Shown here: piece after piece, positions 27,038 to 46,666 of the stretch
How positions within the stretch are numbered: the first letter of the stretch is position 1
How the letters are laid out: every line of letters starts with the position of its first letter
Source: Cochliopodium minus
Lineage: Eukaryota; Discosea; Himatismenida; Cochliopodiidae
NCBI GenBank assembly: GCA_024220525.1
Contig: JAMYWO010000293.1
Coordinates: forward strand, 1-46,786
Length of the DNA: 46,786 nucleotides
Direction: 5' to 3'
Position numbers and translations under genes: made by a program
Notes under the pieces: model-generated
The model's database searches: none
Seen by the model: the letters and a program-made list of their open reading frames with translations, nothing else
What the model was told of the DNA's origin: nothing

Positions 27038-29875
27038 ATGAGTAAAAAAGGAGTTTGGATTAAAGATGAAGATAGAAAAGCTTGTGTAATATGCCAATCC
27101 TCTTTTACTTCTTTCAACAGAAGGCATCATTGCAGAAATTGTAAAAAAAATAGAAAATTCCTTCAAAATTTCTTTTTTAAAATTCATATAAAACCATCAT
27201 ATCTGACATCTCATAAAATACATTAATAGGTGGTGATATCTTTTGTGGTAAAAATATATATAAACAATAATAAAATTTTGGAACATAGATTGTATATTTT
27301 GGTTGTTTTGAATCCAATACAAGAAGGATATATGATTATACTATGTTTATAACCAAACAATTTAAAATATTTAATTTTAAATCATCCCTTAAATCCTTAT
27401 ATACCATCCTATATAGGTCTATAATAAATCATGATCTCATATATCATTGATCATATTCCTTTTATTCGCAATTTATTCAAAAACAACCAAAATATATAAT
27501 CTATACGTTTAAAAATCATATGAATGAAACTATCAATCAAAAAAAAAAAAAAGGAAAATGTTCATCCAGCAAAGTATGAAAATAAATAAAATTTTTTTTT
27601 TTCAGCTAAAAAATTAAATATTTTTTTTTTTATAAAAAGAGTGAGATAGATGGGAAGATGGAAAGAGTCTGTTTGACATGTTACGATGAATTGAATAACA
27701 AGCACGAAATAGGAGCTCCCATCAATTTCAGCCATGATTCACATGTGGGATGGGATCCAGAGAATGGCTTCGACATTAAGAATCTTCCACAAGATTGGGT
27801 AAAGAAATAAAAAAGAATTACTTTGATGAAAAGATATCTTTTCGATATATTGTTTGGGAAAATTAATTTATAAATGTAAACTATAAATCCCTTGTATACC
27901 TAAGATTAATAATACGATTATAGGATAAATTTGTTTTAAACATTAATTTCAAACGTAAAATTCCTTTTCATATCGGAAATATACATGCAAAAAGTATTTT
28001 TGTTAATATAAAGTTTGAGAGATGGACTAATTTTCTTTAAAAAAATTATTTATCCAATTTTATATTAGATCCAATTCAATATTGATTTCTTTTTTTATTC
28101 TTTGAATAATTTTTTACATCTTTCTTTAATTAACTAAATAGATAAAACTCTTTAAACAAGCGGGAGTGAAAAAGAAAGATTTGGAAAACAAAGAAACAGC
28201 CCAATTTTTGATAGAAACAATTGTAGACAACATGGTTCCCAACAGCCAACCTCTACCTCCTCCAAGCAACATCTCCACCACCTCCACCTCCTCCAACCCT
28301 GTGAGCCCTTCTTCCGTTTCCAACGTGGTCCGTAAAGGAGATTCCACCTGTATGCTTGATTATTCTGGTGAGACCGAGACGGAGATCAAGATGAAGTTGG
28401 GTGATGATATTAGCATCGTTGAACGATCTGATCCTTTTTGGTGGTACTTAATAAATTAAAAAAATTTTTTTTTTTTTTTTTATTTTTTAAAAGATTTTTA
28501 TTTTAGTATATCTATTTTGTATCATATTTTTATTTGAAATTTTTAGTTTTTATTTTATTTTTTTAAAATTTTTATTTTATTTTTTAAATATTTTTTTTAA
28601 TTATTCATTTTATTTTTTATTTGATCTTTTTTTTTTTGTAAGGTATGGAGTAAACCACACAACGGGAGTGGAGGGATATTTTCCTTGTGAAGGAGGTTAT
28701 GTAAAATTCAATCCTAAACCCCCTCCCCCAACAAGAAATCCAAATGTAGAAAATAACACCAACAATGAACAAACCACAAAGTAAAAAATATTAAAGATTT
28801 ATTTTTTAAAATTTTTTTTTTATTATTTTTATTTTTTTTAATATTTAATATTATTTATTTCTATATTTTTTCATTTTTTATTTTTTTTATTTATTTTTTA
28901 TCTTGTTTTATTTGTTTTTTTCATTTTTTATTTTTTTTTAATAAAAGTAATAACGCTCCAGTGAAAAGTGTAAATCCAGTAAAAACAGCAGTGAAAAACC
29001 CAGTGAAGGGACAAATAACACCGGTGAAAAAGGGTGTAAAAAAAATGAACGGTGTCAAAAATCCTGTCAAAAAAATGCAGCCCAAACAACAAGGAGGAAA
29101 TTTGTCTCCTGTCAAAAAAATTCCTCCCACTGAAAATAATAACGATGGTGGAAATGATGTTGTTAATAACGATAGCAACAATGTTGTTGAAGATCAACAA
29201 CCAACTAATGTGGTGACTAATAGCGTTAATTTTTTTCATTTTTTTTTTAGTATTTGTTTTATTTTATTTTTTATTTGTTTTATTTTTTATTTTTTATTTC
29301 AAATTTTTTATTTTATTTTCTTTTTTTCAAATTTTTTATTTTTTATTTTTTTTTATCTCATTAGGAATCAAATGAGACTTATGTAGGTGACAACGAACCA
29401 CCATTGCCACCAATCCCCCCTTCTTCTAACGACAACGCACCTCCTCCACCTCCTCCCCCAAGCAACTTTTCTCCAAGTGTAAATAAAAAATTAAAAAATA
29501 AAAATTAAAATTAAAAAATAAAACTAAAAATAAAAATTAAAAAATAAAAAATAAAAATCAATTTTTTTTTCTATAGAGCAATTCACAACCTAAATCTTTG
29601 ACTCTTGAAGAACAAATTAAACTCAAACAAAATTCTGGTTTGAAGCCCACAGCAAAAATAGATACATTACCAACTCTACCAGAGGGTTAAATTAATTTTT
29701 AGATTTTTATTTTATTTTTGTTTATTTTTATTTGATTTTTATTTTTATTAATATTTATTTAAAAATAGACACCAATCCTTTGGCTAATGTTCTTCAAAAA
29801 GCTTTGGAATCTAGAAGAGGATCATTGTTAGAGGAACATGATGACGGTCAATCAGAGGATGAATGGAGCGATTAA
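27038..29875 (+). CDS. FYVE-CRIB/GBD-SH3-VCA protein: WASP-like Arp2/3 activator
   Basis: Ten exons (27038-27140, 27230-27247, 27554-27573, 27640-27798, 28142-28443, 28643-28780, 28948-29224, 29365-29478, 29577-29685, 29769-29875) give 448 residues in phase. Residues 7-62 form a FYVE finger with [33 protein letters not shown] and RVCLTCY, which should bind PI3P. A CRIB motif ([16 protein letters not shown], 71-86) and a GBD helix ([20 protein letters not shown]) match the Rho-GTPase-binding, autoinhibitory region of WASP. An SH3 domain (about 167-226: [24 protein letters not shown]) is followed by a basic linker and polyproline. The C-terminus is a WH2-like stretch ([17 protein letters not shown]), a central helix ([16 protein letters not shown]) and an acidic tail with a terminal Trp (SEDEWSD). 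Inference: Rho/Cdc42-gated actin assembly on PI3P membranes. Confidence 0.9.
27285..27504. repeat. Long imperfect hairpin in FYVE-WASP intron 2
   Basis: The arms 27285-27313 (beginning ATAGATTGTATATTTTGGTT) and 27475-27504 (ending CAAAATATATAATCTAT) are near-perfect inverted copies. Weaker pairing continues inward (AAGGATATATGAT against the region near 27450). The roughly 220-base unit could be a MITE-like insertion or a structured intron that brings the flanking 18-nt and 20-nt exons into register. Confidence 0.5.
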
Positions 29876-29926
29876 AAAAAATAAAAAAAAAATTTTCGAA
29901 ATAATATTTTTTTTTTTTTAAATATT

Positions 29927-32900
29927 TTATTTTTGGTTATTTTTTAAGCTTTCAATTTCTTTTTTGAGTTTTTCTATTTCGTAATCTTTTTCTTTTATTT
30001 CCTTGTTTTTCTTCACAATCTTTCTTTTCAACAATTCTTCACAACTAAGCTTGTTCTTATCTTTGTGGATGAGTTTTAAATTGTCTTCATAAAATTCTGA
30101 TCTTGAGATGTCTTTGTAATATGAAAGGCCATTCTCATTTTCAACTAAATCATCTTTTTGAGTATCAACGTTTTTTTCTTTGTTTTCATCTTTACTTATG
30201 GAAACGATTTTAGTATCTTCCAACAAGATTTGGTTTTCAATACAGTACTCTTCTAAATAAGACAAGCACTCTCCTGCTTCTGGTCTTTTTTCTACTTCTT
30301 TGCTTTTCATTCTATCAAAAAGTAATTCTAGTTTTTCTCCAACTTTAATGCTAGAGAAACTTTTTTAAAAAATTAAAAATTAAAAAAATTAAAATTAAAA
30401 ACAATAAAAATAAATTTTACAATAATACTTCTGTCAAAACGTTAGCTAAAGGGTAAATATCAGTCACATAACATTCTTTTTCAGTGTTTTGTTCAGGAGG
30501 AGAGTTTGAACTTCGTGTGTGAAATTTTTTGGGAGAAAAATTGAAGTGGTAGCTGCTTCCAAAGTCTATGTAAATGAAATACTTCTTTTTGTTTCTTTTA
30601 AAGTACATTATGTTCTCCCTTTTGATGTCTCTGTGTATGATTCCGTGTTGGTGAAGTATTTTGAGTTGAGAGAAAAGCATGTGGCACATCCTGATGAACT
30701 CTTTTTAATAATCAAAAAAGTAAAATCAAAAAAAAATCAAAAATAATAAATCTAAATTTGATACAAAAATTAAAAAATAAAAAAAAAAAGTAGAAAATAA
30801 AAAAATAAATAAATGAAATAAAGAAAATGAAATAAAGAAAATGAAATAAGTTTTAAAAAATAAAAAATAGAAAATCAAAAATAATAAATCAAATAATGAT
30901 AAAATTGAAACAAAAAAAAAATAATAAAACTAAAATAAAAATTAAAATAAAAAAATAATAAATAATAAATAAATAATAAAAAATAAAAATAAAATAAATA
31001 ATGAATAAATAATAAATAAAAATAAAAATAAAAATAAAAATAAAAATAATGAAATTAATGATATTAAAATTTTACCGTGTTCATGTTCAAAAAAGTTTTT
31101 GAGATTTGATTTAAGTGTTTTTCCATTCACCCAATCCAAAACAATGTATTTTTGATCCAGGAAATCATTTTGATCACCCAAATAGTCCAAAATTCTGGGA
31201 GTGACGAAGTGGGGAATTTTTTCGATCATTTTGAGGTTTGCGATTTCAAACTTCCATATTTTCACAAACTCCAACTTGTCGCTTGTTCTTTTTTTGATAG
31301 CCACTATTTGGTTCGTTTCTGTATCAAGGCACTTGTAAACTTTTCTGTGTTAAAAATTTTTTTAATTAGTTTTTACTTAATTATTTATAATTTATTTATT
31401 TTTTATATTTTTAAAATGTTTCTGTTTATTATTTCTTTTATTATTTTTTTTAAAAAAATTATTTGTCTTTTAAAAATATTTCTTGTTTTATTTTTTAATA
31501 TTTTTATTTATCACATTTCTTTTATTTTTTAATATTTTTTAAATTTATCATATTATTTTTTAATTTATTTGTTATTTATTTATTTATTTGTTATTTATTT
31601 ATTTATTATTTATTTATTTTTTTTATTATTTTTTGATTATTTATATTTTAAATGATTTTTATTTTTTTATTCAGTTTTTATTTTATTTTTTTACCCAAAC
31701 CCTCCTTTTCCAGCTGTGTTCAAGACGCCATATCTTTTATTGACTAAAAAATTTTCAGATAGACATTCATAGCAGCTCTTAGTTTTATTTTTGAAGAAAA
31801 TGATGTTGCTTCCTAAAAATTAATTAATCAAAAAACAATTAAAAAAAAAATAAAAAAAAAAATAATTCAATCAAATTAAAATTGAAAAATGAAAATAAAA
31901 AAATTAAAAATTAAAAATTAAACATTAAAAATAAAATTGAATATCAAAAGATTAAAAATTAAAAATTTAAAAATTAGAATGAAAAATAAATAAAAAAATG
32001 TTTAAATAAATAATAAAAAAAAAATGTTTAAATAAATAAAATAAAAATAAAAATAATAAAAAAAATAAAAAAAAATCAAATTAAAATTGAAAAATGAAAA
32101 TAAAAAAAATAAAAAAATAAAATTTTTTACCGCAATTAAAACAAATGATATCTTTATATTCTTCGCTTTCGTTTTCTTCGTTGTTTATTTGGGCTATGTT
32201 TTCCAAAGATTCTGTGTACTCTCCTTGATTTGTGAGTCTCTTTTCAACAAAATATTTCACTTGATTCTTGGGGAAACAATTAGACCTGAAAAAATAAAAA
32301 ATAAAAAATGAAATTAAAGTAATTAAAATAATTAAAATAATTTAATAATTAAAATAATTAAAATAAAAATAAAAAATAAATAAAAAATAAAAAATAAAAA
32401 AATCAAAAATCAAAAATAAAATAAAAATAAAAAAGAAAATAAAAAATAAAAAATAAAAAATCAAAAAATAAAAAATAAAAAATAAAATAAACTCATAAAA
32501 ATAAATGTAAAAAATAAATAATAAATTTGCCATTGAGAAAGAAACTCCAAGATAGAACGATGAACAACTTTGAAAAAAAAGATGGCGTTGTGATTACACT
32601 TGATTTTGATTTGGATGGCGTAGTGATAAGATTTTTTTTGTTCTTCTTTTTTAGTAGAAAGTTTGGGTAACAAAAGAGACTGAGAAGTTTTGATGAGAGA
32701 ATGGTTGGATTCTCTGAACGTTTTCATTTGAATTGCTACGAGTTCTTCGTTTTCTTGTTTTGTGTTTTCTTCGAGGAAGGAGAAGCTGAATCCGTCTATC
32801 CAATATATTTCGTCCATTGTTTTGTAACTATAAGTTGGACTAGTTGAAAAAAAAAAATAATTATAAATAAAAATTATTTTACAAAAATGATTAAAAAAAT

Positions 32901-35900
32901 AAAAAATAATTCTGTATTAAAAAATAAAATAAAATGGTTATTAAAAAAATAGTTTATAAAAAAATTAAATAAATAACAGTTCATACTAAACAAAAAAAAA
33001 ATTTGATTGAAATTTTGTTAAAATAGAATTAAAAACAAATAATTAAAATAAAAAAAAATTAAAAAAATAATCAAAAAAAAATAAGAAAAATAAAAGTAAA
33101 AATTGTAATTTTCTTTACTTTTCAGTGATTCCCTTGACGATCCTGAGGTACAAAACTTTCCACAAAGCAGAAGGCTTGAAAGGAATGAGATACTTGACCT
33201 TCCACTCCTTCTTCTTGCGAAACTGGCGGACATCAATACCTCCGAACAAAACGATCTCCGTAGGCTTCCGAAAAGGAAACAAATAAGGAACGACATACTG
33301 TATGGACTTGCCTGTCTTGCGAGGGTACATAATAGTCAAAGCTCCCAAGATCTTCTTCATTTTCTTCATTTTTTCTTCGTAACCCACGTTGTTGTTGCTG
33401 TTGGGCTCTCCTATTATTTTTTTGACCAGCATGTCTCTGTTTTGCTTGTTGATGAAGTAGAAGCATTGCGTGATGTGTTGGTAGTTGGGCAAGTTGATCG
33501 TTTTCTTGAACTTTTTCACCACTTTTCCGTTTCCTTCGCTCACCAGCATTCTTTCTACTTCTCTCAGCCTCTCCAATAGTGCTTGGTAACTAACTAAAAA
33601 AAAAACAACAAAAAAAATATTTTTAAAAATTAACAATGAAACCAAAAAATTTAAATTAAAATTTATTTACAATAAAATTTTTTTTTTGAAGTTAAAAAAT
33701 GAAAAAATGAAAAGGTGTTTTTTTTTTTATTAATTTCCAAAAATCAAAAAACCAAAAAAATTAAATTAAAAAGAATAATTGAAAAAATCAATTAAAAAAA
33801 AGTTATCAAAAAATTATCAAAAAAATTAAATTGAAAAATAATCAAGTAAAAAAAAATCAAATTGAAAAAAAATTGTCAAAAAAAATTTTAAAAAAAAATT
33901 TCCAAAAAAAAAAATAATTAAAAAAAAAAATATTAAAAAAATCAAAAAAAAATCAAACAAAAAAAACAACTTAAAAATATTAAGAAAAAAAAAAATCAAA
34001 CAAAACTAAAAAAAATCAGGTAAAAACTAAATATTTTAAAAACCTTTGTCTACTATACTTGTGTTGACTTTTGTTAAAAAGCTCATTATTTTATTGTCTG
34101 ATCCCTTGATCCAACTCAGAAGTTTCTTTATGGAATCCTCGCTGCTCGCTTTTCCTTTACCTAGGATGAATTTTCCTTTCTCCTTCCTGTAGTTGATGAT
34201 CTCCACAAACTTTTCCAAAACGTTCTGTACTCTTTCCTTACCAAAATCGAGAATGGACTTTACCATCTTGTTAAAAAATTTAGGATCTAATAAAAAAAAA
34301 ATTTTGTTAAAAAAATATCGAAACTAAAAAAATTAAAAATATTTGAGATAAAAAATAAAAATATTTTATTAATAAAGATATTAACAAAAATAAAATAAAA
34401 AATTATAAAATTTAAAAATAAAAAATGTATACCTGCAATAATAACATCTTTCATTTTGTCGTCATTAAAATAAGTGATCATCCCAAGCTTGTGAAGGTCA
34501 ATAAGGATGGGCTTTAAATTCTTCAAAGCATCTTCTGAGATTTCTTTGTCATTTTTCAGAAATATTTTTGTGGCGTTGGTGATTTTCTCTTTCAACTTGT
34601 TAAAGTCAATAAATGGGTTTTCTTTTGCTCCTTCATAAATCTTTTGGATTTTTGTCAAAACAAGCTAAAATTTTAAAGAAAATAAATAATAAAAAAATCT
34701 AAATAATAATTACAATAAATAAATAAATATTCATAAATTAAAAAATTAATATTTATAAATTATGAATAAAAAAAAAATTTAAAATCTAAAAAAAATAATT
34801 TTAATTTAAAATATAATATTAAAAATTAAAAAAATATTAATAAAATTTATTATGTTGTTCCAAAAATAAAAACATAAAAAAAATTATTTTTAAACAAAAA
34901 ATAGAAAATAAAAAAATTTAAAAAATAAAAATGACAAAGAAAAAAGATAAAAAAATTAATTTAATAAATTTAATAAAAAAATATTTATAATTCCTAATTT
35001 TACCTTGTGTTTAAGAGTGGTTTTTACTCCATACTCCTCTTTGTCGTATTCTGTAGAGATAGTTTTGTATAGTCGAGGAATACCTGATTTTGTCATTTCC
35101 TCCTTGTTTTTGATCACAATAAAAGAACTGTTGTTACAAAAAGATTCTTCGAAATAATGGATTTTGAGATGAATGTTGTATTCCTTGATCAAATTTTTTA
35201 TTTCTTCAAAAAAATAAAAATGAATTAAAAATAAAAAATAAAAAATAAAAAATAAAAAAAATGAAAAAATAAAAAATTTTTAAATCAAAAAAAATATTAA
35301 AAAAATAAAAAATAAAAAATTTTAATAAAAAAATTTAAAAAAATTTAAATAATTTTTATAAAATAAATATTTTTTTGGCACCTTTGTCTATACTTTGTAG
35401 TCTTTCATTTACTACCTCGTGGTCTTGGGAAATTTTGTCAGATTTAGTTCCAACGAGAATGACAGGAGTGTTTTCTTCGAGCTTTTTTTGGAGGAAGAAG
35501 AGCCAATAAACAAGTTTGTTTTGAGAGATCACTTTTTCTAATTTCTTTGATGTGTCAAACAGAATCAAATAACATCCCCCACAAAAAAAGAATGAATGCG
35601 ATTCCTTATTTTAAAATAATTAATCATAAAAAAAATAATAATATTAAAACAAATAAATCAAAAACAAAATAAATAATAAAAAAAATTAAATAGATTTAAA
35701 AAAAATAAATAATTTACAAAAAAAAAAAAAGTTTTTGAATGAATAAAATAATTTAATAAAAAAATATAACAACAAAAAAAGTTTTTGAAGAAAAAATAAT
35801 TAAAAAAATTTTAAATAATTAACTTTTATTGTTCTTTTCTTTTTTGAATTGTTTTACATGATATTCTTCATGTCCTGCAAAATCCCAAATTGAAAGAACA

Positions 35901-38900
35901 GTTCCGTTGTCCAGATTTTTTATTTGAGAGATTTCCACTCCATGGGTCATGTTTTCCTCTTCTTTGATGAAATTGACAACTTCTTGGTGTCGGAGTTTCT
36001 CAGTTTTGGGATCTCCTATTCCCAACAGCCTTGTCTTCAAAGATGTCTTGCCAACATCTTCGTTTCTATGAAAAAAATAAAATAAAAATAAAATAAAAAT
36101 CCAAAAAAATAAACAAAAAAAAAATAAAAATAATTAATAAAACTAGTTCATAAAATAAAAAAATAAAAAAAATAAAAAAAAAAATTCTCAAACAAATTCA
36201 ATTTTTTTACCCAACTATTTATTTTTTTTTTAAAAAAAAATTTATTTAAATTAATAAATTTTTCTTCATTTTTTTCTACCTAACATGATCTTTGAACCAT
36301 CAAAAGATCTTTTTCTGTAGATTTCGTTTCCTTGCTCGTCATATTTGACCATATACTCTATTTTGTTGACCAGCAAAACTCCGTTTTTGAATCTCTTGAG
36401 GTTTTTGATCTGACCCGAAAATTCTTCTCCTATCTTTTCACATTTCATTTTAATTTGGCCATCAGCAGGTTGGTTTGACTTTGTTTTTCCTTGAAATTTT
36501 TTTAAATAAAAATAAATTAGTTGAAAAATAAATTGATAAAATTAAAAATTAAAATGAAAAATAATAACAAGTAAAAATAAAAACAAATTAATTAAAAAGT
36601 AAAATATGATCAAAAATAAAAAGTAAAAACAAAACAATAAAGAATAAATAAAATAAATAATATAATAAATAAAAAAATAATAAAAAATAAATTATGAAAA
36701 TAAAAAATAAATAAATAATCAAAAAATAAAAAAATAAAAAAATAAAAAAATAAAAAATGAAAAATTTTTTAACCTTCACACTCCCAAACGAGTTCGGTAG
36801 ATTTGTCGAGCCAAAAAAACTTCCCCTCACCGTCCCACTCCATATCGTTCTGCACCAAACCAACCCAAACGATATTGTTGGAACCGTCAAGAAACTTTCC
36901 AGTGTAAGGAAGACCATTCTTGATTTTTCCTTCGAAAAACTCTACAGCATCATTAGTTGGTAAAGTGAAACGAATTTTTCCAAAACCGTTATACTCCTTT
37001 CCTTTGAACAAAGTGCCTTCAAAATAGAGAATGTTGTCGATGTTGGAAGTTTTTCCCTTTCCTTCCGTTCTTTTCCCCTCTTCCCACTTTCCTTCCCAGT
37101 AGATTTCTCCTTTCTCGTCGAGTTCTTTTCCCCACCCGCTGTGTTTTCTTCCTTCGACAAGGACTCCCTCAAAAAAGAGGTTTCTTTTTTTGGATTCTAC
37201 TTTTCCTTTCCCATTATATTCTTTTCCGTCCTTCCAAACCTTAATAAAAACATTTTGAAAATTTTTTTTCTGATTTTATTTTTTATTTTTTTATTTTTTT
37301 ATTTTTTCAATTTATTTTTTCAATTTATTTTTTATTTATTTTTTATTTTATTTTATTAATTTATTTATTTATTTTTCAATTTATTTTTTATTTATTATTT
37401 TTTATTTTATCTATTGGTTTGAAAATTGTTATTTCTATTTTATTTTTTATTTTATTATTTGTTTTTTATCACTTTTAATTTTTTATGTTTAATCTTTTAA
37501 TTTTTCTTTTTTAATTTTTCTTTTTTAATTTTTATCTTTTAATTTGAAATTTTTTTTTTACACCTTCCCAAATTAAATTTTTGTCTTTGTCATACTTGCT
37601 CCCATTACCTTCTGGTTTGTTAAATTTCATCCCACCTAATTTAAAAAAATTTTAAAAACAAAAAACTATTGAAAAAAAAATTATTATTTTTTTTAACCTT
37701 CGTAAATGTACATTATTGTTTCTTGTATCCCCTTTTTCCACATTCCCTTTGTGATTTTTTTCTTTTCTTTGTTGAACATTTTGCCTTTCCCGTTGGGCAA
37801 TCCTTCAACTAGACTACCTATTTAAAAAGTAAAAGTAAAATATTTAAAAATGAAAAAAAAAAAAAATAACAAACAAAACAGTAATAAGAAAATCAAATAA
37901 ATAATTTAAAAAAATAAAAAATAAAAATAAAAAAATAGAAAATAGAAAATAAAAATAATAAATTGATAAAAAATAAAAATCAAAAAAATAAGAATAAAAA
38001 ATAAAAAAATTAAAAAAAACAAAACAAAACAAAACAATTTTAAAATAATAAGAATAGATAATAAATAAGAAATAAATAAGACAAAAAAAAAATAAAAATA
38101 AAAAAAATGAATAAAAAAATGAAAAATAAAATAAAAAAGGACAAAAAATAAATATCAAAATAAATGAGAATAAAAAAATAAATAATAAAATAATAAAAAA
38201 AACAAAAAAATGAAAAATAATAGAAAATAAATAAAAAATAAAAACTATTACCATTCCAAATATACTTGTTTTTGTAATTGGTGAAACCTTTTCCCATCCA
38301 CTCTTTCCCATCCTTCCATTCTCCCTGCCACATAATTTCATTGTTTTTGTCAAGTTTGGTGCCAAATCCATTCAAAGTTCCCTTTTTGAGCTTACCATTG
38401 TAATAATAAGAATTATTACCTTTTGAATAAAGAAAAACATCTCCCTCTCCTTTCCATTTGATCCCATCCTTTAAAAAAAAAAATTTTTAAACATATTTTT
38501 AACATTTTATTATTTTGTAAAAAATTTTATTTTTTTAATACTTCACTATTTTTTTTTTTACCTTCATTTTTCCCTTCCAACATAATCCTTGATTCGTTTC
38601 ATAGATTTCTCCATAACCCCTCCATTCTTTTCCTTTTTTCCACTCTCCTTCCCAAAGTGGGTTTCCTTCAAAATCTAGCAAAGCGAATTTCTTTCCATTT
38701 CCATCTGGCAATCCCTCCTTCATTTCACCTTTTTTTTTTTTTTTTTCAAATTAATTTTATTTTTTAAAAATAAAAAAATGACTTTTTTTTTTTACCTTCA
38801 TAACAATAATTAACATTAAAAACTAATTTTCCAAACCCATTCCATTCTTTCCCATCTAAAAACAAAATTTATTAAAAAAAAAAAATTAACAAAAATCAAT

Positions 38901-41847
38901 AATATTTCGATAAATATTCTAAAAAATTTTAAATTGCCTTTAATTTCGCCAATCCAAGAAAATTTGTTGTTAATTTTCTTTCCCTTTCCATTCCACTCAA
39001 CACCTTCCAACCACTCTCCTTCCCAAACACAATTACCAGGCATTATTCTCTTTCCATTTCCGTTTTGCATATTGTTTCTTATTTCACCTGTCATTTAATT
39101 ATTAAAAAAAAAAAAAAAATTTAAAATTAAAATTTAAAATATTAAATAAAATGTTGAAAAAAAAAAAAATATTTTTTTTGCCATAATAAACCCAATTTGA
39201 TGAAATTTGAATTCCGTTGTCCCATTCACCTTCCCAAATGGTATTTGAAACATGATCTATTTTCTTCGCAATACCCGATGGCCTTCCCATTCGGAAATTT
39301 CCAATGTAAGTGTACTCTTTATTGCCCTCCATCATGATTTGAATTTCGCCGAATTGAGGAACATCCAAGCAAATGTTCAAAACAGGAGCTTCTTGGAAAA
39401 CGATGTCATTTATTTTTTCAATTTGTTTTTCGTTTATTTTGACAGACAAGTTGTACAGGTTCTTTATTTGGAACTTGTTGATGTAGAGTGTATCTGTATT
39501 TTCTGACAAATAGCTTTGGATATTCTTTTTGATGTCATGGTTAAAGTTAAAGCTTGAATTTTCTACAAAAATGAAGCGATCTTCTTCTCCGTATCTTTTC
39601 TAAGAATAAAAAAATTTTAAAAAATTAATTTGAAAAATATGGGATTAAATTTTGTAATAAAAATAAATAAAAAAACAATTTTGTTCTTACCAAATTTATT
39701 GTATAACTCAAAAGGAATTCCTTTTTAATTTATGAATGATTAAAAAAAAAAAATTTCAAAAATTAAACAAAAATTTACATCAATCATTCTGTAGTTCTGA
39801 ATCAACTTTATTTGATTTAAAGACAATTTTTCGGGCTCAGATATTTCCAATTTAAAGTTTCCTAAGCCAAGTTGTCCAAAGAATCCTTTTCCACAAACAA
39901 GTGCATCTCCCTTACCTATTTTTTTAAAAAAAAAAAATTCAAATTTATTTTTTAAAAACAAAAGTTTATACTGTTGATTAATAGTGTATGTGAGTGTCCT
40001 GTTGAGATGTAATCTATATTTTTTTGTACATTTACAAAATTTTGCTGTTTTTCATTTTCTGAATAGCAAAGTTGTTTGAAGTTATTTAAACCAGCAGCAA
40101 AAAGATTTTTATTTTCTTTTTTCAAAAAAATTTAAAATAAAATAAAATAAAATGAAACTAATTTTACTGTCCAAATAAAAAGTATGATAAGATCCACAAT
40201 GAACACTGATTGGTATGAATAAAGTTTCTATCTTTTGTGGAGCAAATCTATCATTTAAATCACCAATTCCTAATTGTCTTTATTTCATGGAAAAAAATTT
40301 TTAATTAGGATTTAATAAAAAAAAAAGATGAAAAATATTTTTTACCCATCCTCATTTTTCCCAAAACACCACAATCCACTTTCTAAATTAAAAAATTTTT
40401 AATTTAAGAAAAAAAAAAATGAAAATGAAAAATTAACTGGCCAACACAAAAGTATGGTAAAGACCACAACTTATTTGGTAAATGGTTTGGTCTTCCATGA
40501 TCAATTTAAGATTTATTTCTTTCGATTTTACTTCTTTTATCAGTGAGTTTTCAAACCCTATTAAATAATAAAATATAAAAATTGAAATTATCACAAAATT
40601 TTAACTAAGAAAAAATGTTTACCTAATTGTCCTATTTAAAAATAAATATATTTCCAAATAATTATTTTATTCTATTAAATTACCAAATTTATTGCTTCCC
40701 ATTCCATATAATTTCCCATTTTCTTTTATTTTTAAATTTTTTAAAAAAATTTAAGAAATTTTATATAAACCTTTCACAAACAAACAATGTTTCAATCCAC
40801 ATGAAAACATTTTTATTTTTTCGGGGATTATGAGAGTAGGCCTTCTGCAATCAAGGTTGTATTTCCTAAATTTTCCTGTAAAAAAAATGTGTCCATTTTC
40901 TTTTAAAAAAAAAAGATTGAGTAAATATTTTAGCCAACAAAAAATAATTTTTTAAAAAAAGACCTTTTTGAATCAAAGTGAACAGTTGAGAAGAGCACAC
41001 GCTTTTTACTTCTCTGTCAATCAAAACAAATTTATTTTGTTTAACTATTCCCACTTCTAATCCTAATTGTCCATCTTCGTTGTTTCCTATTAACAAGATG
41101 TCAAATTTTTTGAAAGGAGAATAAAATAAATTTGTTACCACATCCATAAAGATCACCATTATCTTTAATTTTTTTTTTTTTTGATGATTAAAAATTCTCT
41201 TTTATTTTATGAGGATGCCTTACTTTCAATATAAAAGGAATTGTTATTTCCTATTATTAAGATTTTGATCTTCTGATTGTTCATAATCTTCACTGGTGTA
41301 TTAGCACAATTAAAATCTCCTTTCCCCAATTGTCCTTGTGTTATATGAATTGAATAATAATTATTTTTGTTGAATATAATATCTCCTCTTCATTTTTTTC
41401 TTACCTGATTCATTTTGGCCGAAAGCAAATAGATCTAAGAATTCGATTTTTAATTAATATTTAGCTCATATATCCTTATTTATTTACCTCCATTCTCTAT
41501 ACATGTGATATTGAAAAGAATTTTAAATTTTATTTTTACATTTGGGGAAAGAAAAATTACCACATTGAATGATATTATGATGTGTTCTGATGGAATTTGA
41601 TGTAACTCTCATCAATCAAGATATTTGTGAGGATAATATTTTCAATTTTTTTATTTAATCAAATTAAAAACAGGAGATGTGAAAAACATACTCAAAATCA
41701 TAATGATTGTTAATCATTCAAGAAGGGGGAAAAAAAAAGGCAAACATATTTTAACTATCACATTTAGAAATTAAGAATTTACCATTAATCTTATTTGAAA
41801 AAAGGAATCCAAAGATATTTACCCAACTCAAAAACAAATATATTCAT
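29927..41847 (-). CDS. Giant Roco protein: RCC1-MORN-Roc-COR-zinc ribbon-kinase
   Basis: Thirty-seven exons from 41607 down to 29927 chain without a phase break to about 2,045 residues; the ATG at 41845-41847 is the likely start, with the exon after it unresolved. Order: at least six RCC1 blades (FGQNESGQLG, GKGFFGQLGLG) to about residue 360; about 17 MORN repeats (WEGEW, GKEWNGFGK) to about 925. Next is a Roc GTPase with P-loop GNEDVGKTS, DFAGHE and TKSD; COR with LHKLGMITYF and VIIADPKFFNKMV; a CxxC...CxxC ribbon (CFNC, CYEC). The kinase has GKGGFGKVYKC, VAIKK, HRDIKRENI and DFG, so it should be active. A charged coiled coil ends it. Roco proteins (LRRK, Dictyostelium Rocos) are GTP-regulated kinases; the LRRs usual before Roc are absent. 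The gene uses 4-nt and 9-nt exons and three GC-AG introns. It converges on the WASP-like gene, 51 bases apart. Confidence 0.9.
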
Positions 41848-41969
41848 TTCAAAAAAGTTTTATAAGAAAAATTTGCACCAATTATCTTTTTTAAGTGAAA
41901 AAAAAATATATAAAAAAAAAAATCAAATAAAAAAAGGAAGATCAATATATTTTTGATATATTTAAACAA
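41848..41969. promoter_or_regulatory. Short divergent promoter, Roco and C2-SPRY-DCN1 genes
   Basis: If the Roco start at 41847 is right, 122 A/T-rich bases separate two opposing start codons. A TATATTTTTGATATAT-like palindromic stretch lies near 41946-41961. This is placed by geometry; the assignment depends on the unresolved Roco 5' end. Confidence 0.35.
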
Positions 41970-44900
41970 ATGAAGAAGAGAAAAAATACAGAAGATAAGA
42001 TATTGACAATTAAATGCAGTGGTGCCAAGGGATTGTCTAATAGAAGAACGAAGAACGTAAAGGTCTTTTGCAGAATCAAAATAAGCACTGATAAGAATGA
42101 TGAAATAGAAGAAGTTGAAACTAAAAAAGATGGAAGACCAAAAGATCCAGTATGGAATTTTGAAAAAGAATTGTAAAATATAAAAAATTTTTAATTTTTC
42201 TTTCAATATTGCTTTATATAAATATATAATAATCCTCACCATGCATTATAAAGATAATATCAAGAAAAGAAAAGAGATATAATTTTTCTTGTGATGATCA
42301 ATCAATTTATTGTATACAATAAATCATGAATGTACAAGATATAAATATCCTTTTATCCTATAATAATGATTTATCAAATAATAATTGTAAATGTTTTACA
42401 TAAACTCAAAAAGTTATTCATGCTTTAATAACAATTCAAATAATGAAATTGTGCGGTTGAATAATATCAATATTTAAAACAATAAATGAAACAATAAAAA
42501 GATATATACAATTGATTGATCAAATTTTGTTTAAAAAACTTTTATAATTCAAAATTAATCGTAAATCTTTTTAACAGTTCACTTCCAAGCGATTTGGACG
42601 AAGAAATCACAGTCACAGCAACCATTTACGACGGCCAAAAGGAAAATGACGAGAAATACATGGGAGAAGTCATCGTTCAGTTCGCTCCTGACTCCAGCAA
42701 ATCCGTAGACAAGTGGTTTGACCTTTCTTCCAAAAATTCCACCAAAGTTGCAGGTACTCTTCAATTGTCCTTAAGCTATTCTGGGCCTTGTAAAAACTAT
42801 TTTTAAATAAAAAAATGTTTTTTTTTTCATGCAATTCTTTTTAAAATATTTATTTTTCATGTGCCATTCTTTTTATAAATAAAATTTTCAAAAATAAAAT
42901 TTTATATTAATTCATAAATATTTATTAAATAAATAAATGTTATTTTTTAAACTAATTTATAATTTAAAACAGCAATATCCATCAAAAAGAAACAATCCAA
43001 AGTCTTGGATCTCACTGGAGACGGAGCCCTGCTCAGAAGCAAATCCATTATCGACCAACCTTTCACTGTAGTCAAATCTAAGATTGTGGAATGGGAAAAA
43101 AACAGAGATGGTCCTGAAAACACAAAAATGATCACTTTTCCAAAATCCCAAGGTAATATTAATTGAAAAAAAATTTAAAAAAAACATCTTTTTCATCACA
43201 TTTATTTTTTTAAAAAATTTTTATTTTAAATTTTTTTAATTTTTTATTTGTTATTTTTATTAATAATTTTTAATATTTATTTTTCTATTTTTTTTTATTT
43301 CTTTTTCTTTTTATTTTATTTTAATAATTTTTGTTTTTTGTTTAGCTGTTATCAGCAAGGATGGATATACAATCTCTGGAAACAACACAGGATACTGGGG
43401 ATGGGGAAACATGGAGAGCATCAAAGCAGATTGCTTGCTCAAAACAGGGAAATGGTACTACGAACTCACTCTCAAAAACAATGGAAATCTCTATGTTGGT
43501 TTTTGTACTCCTGACTATGATCCTACTGTAACTCTTTCATTTTATTCAATTTTTAATTTAAATTTTTTAATTATATTCGTTCAAATTTTTTATTTTTAAA
43601 TTTGATTTTATTTATTCATTAAATTTAATTTTATTTTGTTTGAACCATTTTGAATTTTAAATTTAATTTTTTTCTTATATTTTAAATTTTTTTTTACTTT
43701 GTTAAACTTTTTATAATGATTAAAAATTAATTCTTGTTTGAAAAAATTTTTAAATTTTAAAACTATTTTTATTTTAAAACTATTTTTATTTTAAAACTAT
43801 TCTTGTTGAAAATTTTAAAACTATTTTTTATTTTAAATTTTTGATTTTAAAATTATTTTTTGATTCATTTTTTTGGTTTTAAATTTATTGAATTCAAATT
43901 TTTAATTTTGAAAAAAGAACTTTAAAAAAGGAGATTGTTTCGCATATGACGGACACAACAACAACAAAAGAAGAAAAGATACTGCCACTCCCTACGGAAA
44001 CGGACACTGGAACAACGGAGATATCATCGGATGTTCCCTCGACTTCTCCAAAAAATCCATACATTTTTACAAAAATGGGAATGATTTAGGTGAAGCTTTT
44101 GGAGCACAAGGTAAACTATTTTTAAAAAATTATTGTTTAATTTAAACATTTATTGAAACTTTTAATTTTATTTTATTTTTTAAAAATAAAATAAATTATT
44201 TTAATTTTTTAGAAAGAAATTATTCTTTCTTCTCACATTTTTAATTTTTTTTTGAAACACATTTTAATTTTAGATTTTGTTTTAATTTTTAAATACAAAT
44301 TCAATTTTAAACATAATTTATTTTAAATTTTATGTTAAAAATATTTTAAAATTTTTTATTTAATTTTTTAAACATTTATTGAAACTTTTAATTTTATTTT
44401 TAAAAGAAATTATTCACATTTTTAATTTTTTTTTAAATACATTTTTTATTATTAACTTTCATTTATTTTAATCTTATTTTTAATTTATTTTAATCATATT
44501 CCAAATTTTTATTTTGATTTTTTTTCAAAAATTATTCACTATTATTTTTTCTCAGAAATCACAAAAAATGTCGAACTGATTCCATTCTGCCAATTGTCAA
44601 ACAACATGAGCGCTTTCTTTAATTTCGGAGCTACTCCCTTCAAGTATCCTCTCAAGGGGCATCACCCAATCCACATCAAACTCTCCAACACCCAAATTGC
44701 CAAACTCAGAAGCAGATTCGATCATTATGAAAGTAAAAAAAAAAATTATTTAAAAAAAAAAAATTATTAAAAAAAAAACATTTTTTAATTATAAAAAACA
44801 TTTTTTAATTCATTATTTAGATAAATTATTTTTATATTTATGTTTTTTTGAATTATTTTTTTAAAATAACTTTTATTGGTAGAGGTTACTGTTGAAGCAG

Positions 44901-45962
44901 GGCACGAAGAAGAAGCAGCAATACACAGTGAAGGAGTAGAAAAACTTCAAAAAGGTAAAAAATTATTTTTATTTCATATTTTTAAATTTTAATTATTAAA
45001 TTTATTTTTAATTTTTTAATTTTTTAATTTTATTTTTTAAATTTTTTTATTTCAAATTTTGTTTTTAAATTTTAATTTCATTTCTTATTTTTTAATTTTA
45101 TTTTTAAATTTTTTATTTCAAAAAAAAAAATTGACAACAAAATTAGATCTTTCAATAGATGGAGAGGGTGACATCTCCTTTCTCGTTTTGAGTTGGAAGC
45201 TCGATTGTTCAGAGTTCGAAAGGATCACTCTCGACGAGTGGATGAACGGCTTCATTGTGAATGGATGTGAAGGTAAAAAAAAAATCCAAAAAAAAAACAA
45301 AAAATAACAAATAAAAAAACAAAAAAAATAAAAATTGAATTATAAATTTTTTTAAAAATTTTTTTGAATAAAATATTGAATTAAATCTTTATTTTTTTAA
45401 AAAATAAGGTATGAGTGACATTCAAAAAAACATCAAAATTTGGGTCGAGCAAGTTAACAGTGATCAAGAGCTTTTCAACATTTTTTACAACTGGATTTTT
45501 ACTTACATCAAGGGTAAAAAAAAATATTTTCGTTAAAAAAATTAATTCAAAAAATTCAAGAAATTTGAAAAAAAAAAAAATATTTACTTTTAAAAATAAT
45601 TTTGAATGTAAAATTAAAAAATAAATTTAAAAAACTATTCAAAAAAAAAAAATATAGGTGAAGGTAAAAGTATTCCTTTCGAACAAGCCAAAATTCTTTG
45701 GAACTTGGTACTCAAATCAAGAAAACTCAAACAAACTAAAAAACCATGGGCTTACTATGACAAATGGGTCGAGTATTGTGGCAGCACTGATGATCTTAAG
45801 AACATCCCCCAGGATCTTTGGAACATGTTGTGGATTTTGATGCAGAAGTACCCTTCCAACTTTGATGGCTATGACTCTGACAATTCTTCTTTCCCTCTCA
45901 AGATTGATTCTTTTGTCGATTATATTTATGGAGATGATTCTGGTGAATCTGATGATCTTTAA
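41970..45962 (+). CDS. C2-SPRY-DCN1 (cullin neddylation) fusion protein
   Basis: Ten exons (41970-42172, 42578-42789, 42973-43152, 43346-43527, 43918-44110, 44556-44732, 44883-44954, 45147-45272, 45409-45513, 45658-45962) give 584 residues in phase. Residues 10-138 form a C2-type sandwich (LTIKCSGAKGLSNRR, PVWNFEKEFSLPSD, YMGEVIVQF); few Asp ligands are visible, so calcium binding is uncertain. A SPRY/B30.2 domain follows: GKWYYELTL, LYVGFC, NNGDIIGCSLDF, IHFYKNGNDLGEAFG. From about 407 to 575 lies a DCN1/PONY domain: DISFLVLSWKLD, ITLDEWMNGFIVNGCEG, FEQAKILWNLVLKSRKLKQ, IPQDLWNMLWILMQKYP, and the acidic end IDSFVDYI. DCN1-like proteins act as co-E3s that load NEDD8 on cullins; SPRY domains often pick substrates. 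A membrane- or substrate-directed neddylation factor is inferred. The tail is acidic. Confidence 0.9.
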
Positions 45963-46058
45963 TTAAAAAAAAAATAAAAGAAAATTTTTAAATAAAACAC
46001 TTTATTTTTATTTTATTTTTATTAAAATAAATAATAAATTTAATTTATAATACATTTT

Positions 46059-46666
46059 TTATTTATCTTCTATTTCGGATATTTCGGAGGATTCATTCAT
46101 ATCCAAAATAAATTTAAAATTATTTTTGTTCCCAAAGTTGTTTGTCTCGCTTGTGCTCGGATCAAACAGATTTTTGGAAGTAGAAGATCTCCTGACTCCT
46201 ATAGAATGATACTTCTTCGATTTCGGGCTACGAGATTCATACAAACTATTGCTAGGACGAATCCACTTGGTAAAAGATTTCCTAGTTCCAGGACTAGCAA
46301 ACTCATCTTTGTCAGTATTTTTAGTTGGACTAAGTGTCAAAAGATCATTATCTACATTTCCAATATTTGAATCACTACCCTTATTAAATAAATGTTTGTT
46401 GTCCAACTTATAATCATTCTCCGCTTCCCTTTCTTTCTCATTTTTCGCTTCTCTTTCAAAAGTTTTTCTATTGTTACTTGAAGGGATGTCACAAGTCAAG
46501 CTACCAATTTCAAATTCGTCTTCTGCGTCTTTGCTGCTCAAAAATTCTAAATAGCTCGACACTTGGACGTCCTTCCTCTTTTTCTTCATCATATTTTTGT
46601 TTACGATCACTTCCACGTTCATATTGTTGTACAAACTCGATTTTGTTCCTGATCCTGAATCCAAAC
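46059..46666 (-). CDS. Last exon of an unknown Ser-rich disordered protein (5' part off window)
   Basis: An open frame begins after a CAG acceptor (46667-46668) in phase 2 and reaches TAA at 46059-46061, giving about 202 residues. No domain is recognisable. It is rich in Ser, Asn, Lys and Glu, with a charged central stretch (EREAKNEKEREAENDYK) and a run of Ser-Pro and Arg-x-x-Ser sites (TRKSFTKW, ESRSPKSKK, VRRSSTSK). This suggests a phosphorylated tail. The upstream exons lie beyond the right edge. The gene converges on the C2-SPRY-DCN1 gene with 96 bases between stops. Confidence 0.75.

Follow-up and report, generated by a model that had tools for sequence, protein, structure and literature searches.

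The DNA analysed here (the window) is a 46,786-nucleotide (nt) contig of Cochliopodium minus, JAMYWO010000293.1 of assembly GCA_024220525.1 (contig C290 in our numbering). Its minus strand carries, from 41612 to 29927, a spliced open frame of 37 coding exons and 2,039 amino acids (aa) with no internal stop codon, in a gene model that we refined by hand. The predicted protein runs from an RCC1-like propeller through an array of MORN-type repeats to a Roc GTPase domain, a COR region and a protein kinase; it is thus a Roco kinase with RCC1 and MORN modules where leucine-rich repeats (LRRs) usually sit. An earlier reading of the same stretch, made from the letters without database searches (the sequence-only reading), had described 37 exons in one frame of about 2,050 residues, which agrees with our model.

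The window is AT-rich (GC 0.17–0.27 per kb), with GC-richer exons lying between T-rich introns in a eukaryotic style. We searched the whole window on both strands with a self-written Viterbi gene finder, in which nine open stretches seeded the codon model and introns had a model of their own; its first pass already gave one 31-exon gene on the minus strand, from 41159 to 29927 (1,970 codons including the stop). Most exons of the final model come from this pass; refinement from the raw sequence added six exons, shifted some boundaries among the repeats and permitted two GC donors. The 36 resulting introns measure 48–450 bp, and the model requires two GC-AG introns, two 9-nt exons (40631–40623 and 41496–41488) and one 4-nt exon (36214–36211), the latter finishing the Roc P-loop IMLVGNEDVGKTSL, which agrees with the aligned paralogues. 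Such microexons, together with the GC-AG introns, may cause a standard annotation to break this gene. As controls, we ran the retrained program on 29500–42300: the minus strand yielded a 32-exon gene with 2,017 codons, against 320 codons on the plus strand, 329 on the reversed sequence and 151–629 on 20 local shuffles (at most 353 in 19 of them), a margin that is inflated, as the retrained codon model includes codons of the tested gene. Homology is the stronger evidence for the gene.

The ends are less certain than the middle, since the retrained program places them elsewhere once a penalty is applied: one setting gives 44 exons from 42982 to 29379, and a second splits the gene at 41207/41159 and again carries the 3′ end to 29379, past the stop at 29927. 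For the initiation codon, the sequence-only reading had chosen 41847, which we set aside, having found no convincing exon joining that position to the first blade. We prefer 41612 because, in the model of a paralogue on contig C403 (L062), the initial methionine is equally far from the first blade. With looser settings, the program does carry the gene upstream of 41612; the 5′ end stays uncertain, and 41612 should be regarded as better placed than 41847, not as proven.

In the propeller (39779–41612, exons 1–14, residues 1–358), Pfam matches the RCC1-like domain (RLD) PF25390 at residues 21–345 with an E-value of 2.2e-61, over profile positions 1–347 of 363, and seven blades can be counted by eye from the strand motifs, in line with the six or more seen previously; a simple motif pattern recovers only 4. 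The solved structures closest to the propeller are UVR8 (2.6e-47), RPGR (4.5e-45) and HERC1 (9.6e-31), with weaker matches to an RCC1-like G exchanging factor-like protein (1.3e-23) and to RCC1 (about 1e-21). The linker that follows (39240–39720, about residues 359–488) is homologous in five paralogues, L065 (7e-14), L066 (7e-12), L059 (2e-9), L062 (1e-7) and L060 (4e-4). As a separate observation, a query with the RCC1 part against the whole assembly gave at least 148 matches (88 of 717 candidates scored), several of them clustered on contig C73, suggesting that RCC1-repeat genes form a large family in this genome beyond the Roco genes.

The repeat array (36802–39239, residues 489–916) was delimited with a hidden Markov model (HMM) made from 58 units of five paralogues, the window being excluded. 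In the window protein it gives 19 matches, of which 17 lie within the array, 16 of these at E up to 0.05; the two others, both very weak, lie at residues 468–477 and 1321–1330. An HMM made from the window's own units gives 14 repeat matches. The longest repeat exon (exon 23, 36775–37239, 155 aa), modelled by AlphaFold2 with eight paralogue segments, is predicted to be all-beta (predicted local distance difference test score, pLDDT, 80). Its first 11 Foldseek matches in the PDB (E 2e-3 to 6e-2, probabilities 0.91–1.00) are TgMORN1, PfMORN1, junctophilin-2 (two), SET7/9 (two) and five radial-spoke or axonemal chains; we take the six named matches to be MORN proteins, and the axonemal chains are presumably radial-spoke MORN proteins, their identity being absent from the search output. 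We therefore call the repeats MORN-type, on the strength of a predicted stacked beta-hairpin fold matched at low TM-scores.

Behind the array, the Roc domain (35196–36292, about residues 992–1143) exceeds the Pfam cut-off (PF08477, 6.9e-17), as does the kinase (30272–31726; PF00069, 4.1e-22). The Roc motifs GNEDVGKT, MTHG, DFAGHEEY and GTKSD are invariant across six aligned members. The COR region, A and B (32550–35087, about residues 1180–1620), was assigned by profile and by the fold of a paralogue. A Roc-COR profile built from six sequences, the window and five paralogues, has the Chlorobium tepidum Roco protein (3dpu) as its first match (1.8e-17), with Roc then COR aligned in order, followed by two entries named “Rab family protein” and then by the Roc of LRRK2. 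Among the six members, Pfam recognizes Roc in all, COR-A in four and COR-B in one. In a fold search with an AlphaFold model of the Roc-COR part of a paralogue (L038), the first 16 PDB matches are all LRRK2 or LRRK1. Between COR and kinase lies a CxxC...CxxC pair (31763–32143), kept in several paralogues and without a Pfam match, which we take to be zinc-ribbon-like. The kinase carries GKGGFG, VAIK, HRDIKREN, DFG and PPE, presumably the usual catalytic motifs; that these are intact is in line with the apparently active kinase of the sequence-only reading. The charged C-terminal tail (29927–30271), perhaps a coiled-coil, is described from its sequence only.

Taken together, the Roc domain and the COR directly behind it (by profile order, by the other members and by the paralogue fold) place the predicted protein in the Roco family, and a kinase follows COR as in Roco group 2 (LRR-Roc-COR-kinase). 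No LRR, WD40-repeat, ankyrin, DH, PH or VPS9 family is found among the 11 Pfam matches of the joined protein (E up to 0.1), nor is a death domain, and the kinase is C-terminal, not before Roc as in the DAPK group. The Pfam search and structure prediction proposed by the sequence-only reading have thus placed RCC1, Roc and kinase over their cut-offs and given a MORN-type fold for exon 23, and its central claim, one Roco kinase with RCC1 and MORN in place of LRRs, stands; the arrangement also recurs in paralogues.

To describe these, we searched the assembly (44.65 Mb, 598 contigs). A Roc-COR query gave at least 90 matches (70 of 196 candidates scored), seven of them the gene's own exons, and a MORN-to-Roc query at least 93 (89 of 94 scored), eight of them its own. 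Outside the window, the Roc-COR matches group into at least 47 clusters, and for at least 25 of the 47 a MORN-to-Roc match lies no more than 8 kb upstream on the same strand. Among these 25, the match falls within the repeats in 14, at the final repeat in 4 and solely in the pre-Roc linker in 7. A Pfam MORN match on contig C472 raises the count to at least 26 of 47, and an RCC1 match lies upstream in at least 7 of 47.

Nine clusters, chosen for RCC1 or MORN matches beside Roc-COR and hence not a random sample, were fetched and modelled; several of the models end where the fetched stretch ends, and their unit counts come from two HMMs, one of which was trained on these same paralogues. Four of the nine have the order RCC1, MORN, Roc, COR (contigs C77, C302, C37 and C19). 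On C302, without hand work, a single 1,728-aa gene model of 21 exons combines RCC1, two MORN units, Roc, COR and kinase; on C77, too, every part is present, and the split made there by the program is bridged, by eye, by a GT-AG intron (about 54 nt) inside a MORN unit; C37 has RCC1, 10–13 MORN units, Roc and COR, and Pfam scores its MORN repeats at 21.1 bits, just short of the cut-off of 22.5; C19 has RCC1, 27–28 MORN units, Roc and COR, in a model that reaches into the kinase. Three others (C461, C403 and C57) are RCC1-Roc-COR with one or no MORN unit. On C110 (L064, C110:64300–72300), ankyrin repeats precede 17–20 MORN units and Roc-COR, a swap of the front module on the same core, and C234 has 8–13 MORN units and Roc-COR, behind a front that may belong to a neighbouring gene. 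Pfam finds RCC1 in seven of the nine models, ankyrin in L064 and a kinase in L060.

A stretch directly before Roc, RTFEGIRIMIxG, is common to most of 11 aligned sequences. As both this stretch and the RCC1-MORN linker are conserved in paralogues, the order is not explained by unrelated genes that happen to be neighbours. In a small tree (12 sequences, 586 columns), the window gene groups with C302, C37 and C19 (support 99), and C77 stands beside C234 (94); this suggests that front modules may have been gained or lost among the paralogues, although the tree is too small for a firm claim. Two further loci, L038 (C19) and L039 (C387), look like Roco kinases with the same core, each in a single open frame with a short front and, by eye, a cysteine-rich, RING- or TRAF-like C-terminus.

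The family is large. Pfam COR-A gives 82 matches over the assembly at E up to 1, the window's own COR not being among them; the 60 at E up to 0.001 merge with the Roc-COR matches into 78 clusters, or 79 with the window. These are to be counted as Roco-like loci and not as working genes, since some matches lie in long open frames and not all are proven genes. With that limit, 79 loci exceed the up to 47 ROCO genes of the richest brown algal species, which PMC11378527 (2024) gives as more than in other organisms reported. The brown algal genes resemble the present ones as a lineage expansion; they differ in being LRR-ROC-COR, and MORN and RCC1 occur 0 times in the main text of that paper.

How might such a protein work? 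The account that we favour, and consider reasonably probable, is that a single gene encodes a large Roco kinase in which Roc-COR works as it does in LRRK2 and in bacterial Roco proteins, as a GTPase switch, here governing the kinase behind it. The propeller would bind a partner or ligand, the role held by WD40, Kelch and ankyrin modules in other Roco proteins. The MORN array, placed directly before Roc where LRRs usually sit, would serve, with a length that varies, as a stiff spacer or as a platform for self-association; the range in unit number, from 2 (C302) to 27–28 (C19) on a constant Roc-COR, fits a spacer. Binding at the front would then alter the state of Roc-COR and, through it, the output of the kinase. 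Beyond this one gene, we also entertain, tentatively and with less confidence than in the scheme itself, a large class of Roco kinases without LRRs in this genome, whose constant Roc-COR-kinase core is preceded by MORN arrays of 2–28 units bearing exchangeable fronts (RCC1, ankyrin, others); it could form a diversified receptor-like or sensor repertoire, with MORN as the ruler for the spacing of sensor and switch.

Several points weigh against the favoured account. Gene and protein are known here from DNA alone. The LRR, a common Roco feature, is absent before Roc, its place being taken by MORN-type repeats. COR-A lies below the Pfam cut-off in the window protein (4.1e-4 in the scan of the joined protein and 2.9e-5 in a second scan; 20.7–24.4 bits for COR against a cut-off of 35.3), so that, of the complete Roc-COR unit described earlier, Roc stands by Pfam and COR stands by profile and structure. 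The L038 model behind that structural evidence is itself weak (mean pLDDT 58, the Roc part being poor), with TM-scores of 0.14–0.32 on the query and 11–14% identity, and the support comes mainly from its COR part, since confidence in Roc is low. The “about 17” MORN repeats of the sequence-only reading are matched in number by the paralogue HMM and in type by the predicted fold, but not by Pfam, where MORN reaches 12.4 bits against 22.5 (E 0.16, three stretches), which is short of membership; the fold matches of exon 23 have TM-scores of 0.31–0.38, none at E 0.001 or better.

One has to consider whether two or three neighbouring genes have been wrongly joined. The joined model had to allow the GC-AG introns and the three tiny exons, the program with a penalty moves the gene ends, and it split C77; yet the same domain order is met at C77, C302, C37 and C19, with C302 a single model that needed no refinement, and both the RCC1-MORN linker and the residues just ahead of Roc are conserved. 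We reject the chimeric model as most improbable. Scarcely more probable is that the propeller acts in cis as a guanine-nucleotide exchange factor (GEF) on its own Roc domain, a suggestion of the sequence-only reading that we do not retain. RCC1 itself is a GEF, for Ran, a full RLD stands in the same chain as Roc, and both RCC1 and the RCC1-like G exchanging factor-like protein appear among the weaker PDB matches; UVR8, RPGR and HERC1 nevertheless come ahead of RCC1, and Ran exchange activity is shown for RCC1 itself only, as a review puts it. L064 has ankyrin repeats and no RCC1 in front of an intact Roc, which argues against an obligatory cis-GEF, and no RCC1 was seen in L067, L038 or L039 either, whose fronts may be incomplete. 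Because of L064 and of the fast GDP release of bacterial Roco proteins, as stated in PMC6337361, a built-in exchange factor seems very unlikely.

Anchoring of the kinase to a membrane by the MORN array, with lipid binding switching it on, takes up the membrane sensor suggested by the sequence-only reading; it deserves somewhat more credit and is still unlikely in our view. Some MORN proteins are membrane-associated, and junctophilin-2, PfMORN1 and TgMORN1 are on the fold list of the array; that list also holds SET7/9 and axonemal chains, and the MORN sequence match is weak. Alsin (ALS2), placed at endosomes in PMC8773251, combines an RCC1-like domain with eight MORN repeats in one protein, and the same source ties its MORN/VPS9 half to self-association and endosome targeting, which we take as a lead only. 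Unlike the window protein, whose Pfam matches include none of these families, Alsin carries DH/PH and VPS9 GEF domains according to that source.

LRRK1, LRRK2 and the Dictyostelium Roco kinases (Roco group 2) share Roc-COR followed by a kinase, with repeat modules in front; the window protein differs in lacking LRR, WD40-repeat and ankyrin matches and in having an RCC1 propeller, a MORN array and a zinc-ribbon-like element before the kinase. The Chlorobium tepidum protein is the top profile match, with Roc and COR-A aligned in order; prokaryotic Roco proteins are described in a review as LRR-Roc-COR without a kinase. Roco modules named in reviews comprise LRR, ankyrin, armadillo, WD40, Kelch, RasGEF, RhoGEF and others, and full-text searches of openly readable papers gave, among the papers listed, no description of a Roco protein with RCC1 and MORN. 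As far as could be seen, RCC1-MORN-Roc-COR-kinase is new within the Roco family, although a deposited sequence may already exist on which nobody has remarked. Interest in Roco proteins comes mostly from Parkinson's-linked LRRK2, for which control of the GTPase-kinase core by the front half is a matter not yet settled; naturally occurring proteins that pair this core with different, exchangeable fronts offer a way to separate core-borne from repeat-borne control.

Three other gene models of the window, all on the plus strand, deserve mention. A divergent neighbour (41970–46370), whose start lies about 360 bp from that of the Roco gene and whose 3′ end is uncertain, has C2, SPRY and cullin-binding domains by Pfam, a combination that looks unusual. 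On the other side, a convergent neighbour (27520–28784) shows a P21-Rho-binding domain and an SH3 domain by Pfam, in the first part of an unrefined model. Further away, 17954–20820 matches 2-oxoacid dehydrogenase acyltransferase (E2) with two lipoyl domains in Pfam; its product is probably a dihydrolipoyl acetyltransferase, and the presence of this gene indicates that the host has this mitochondrial-type enzyme.

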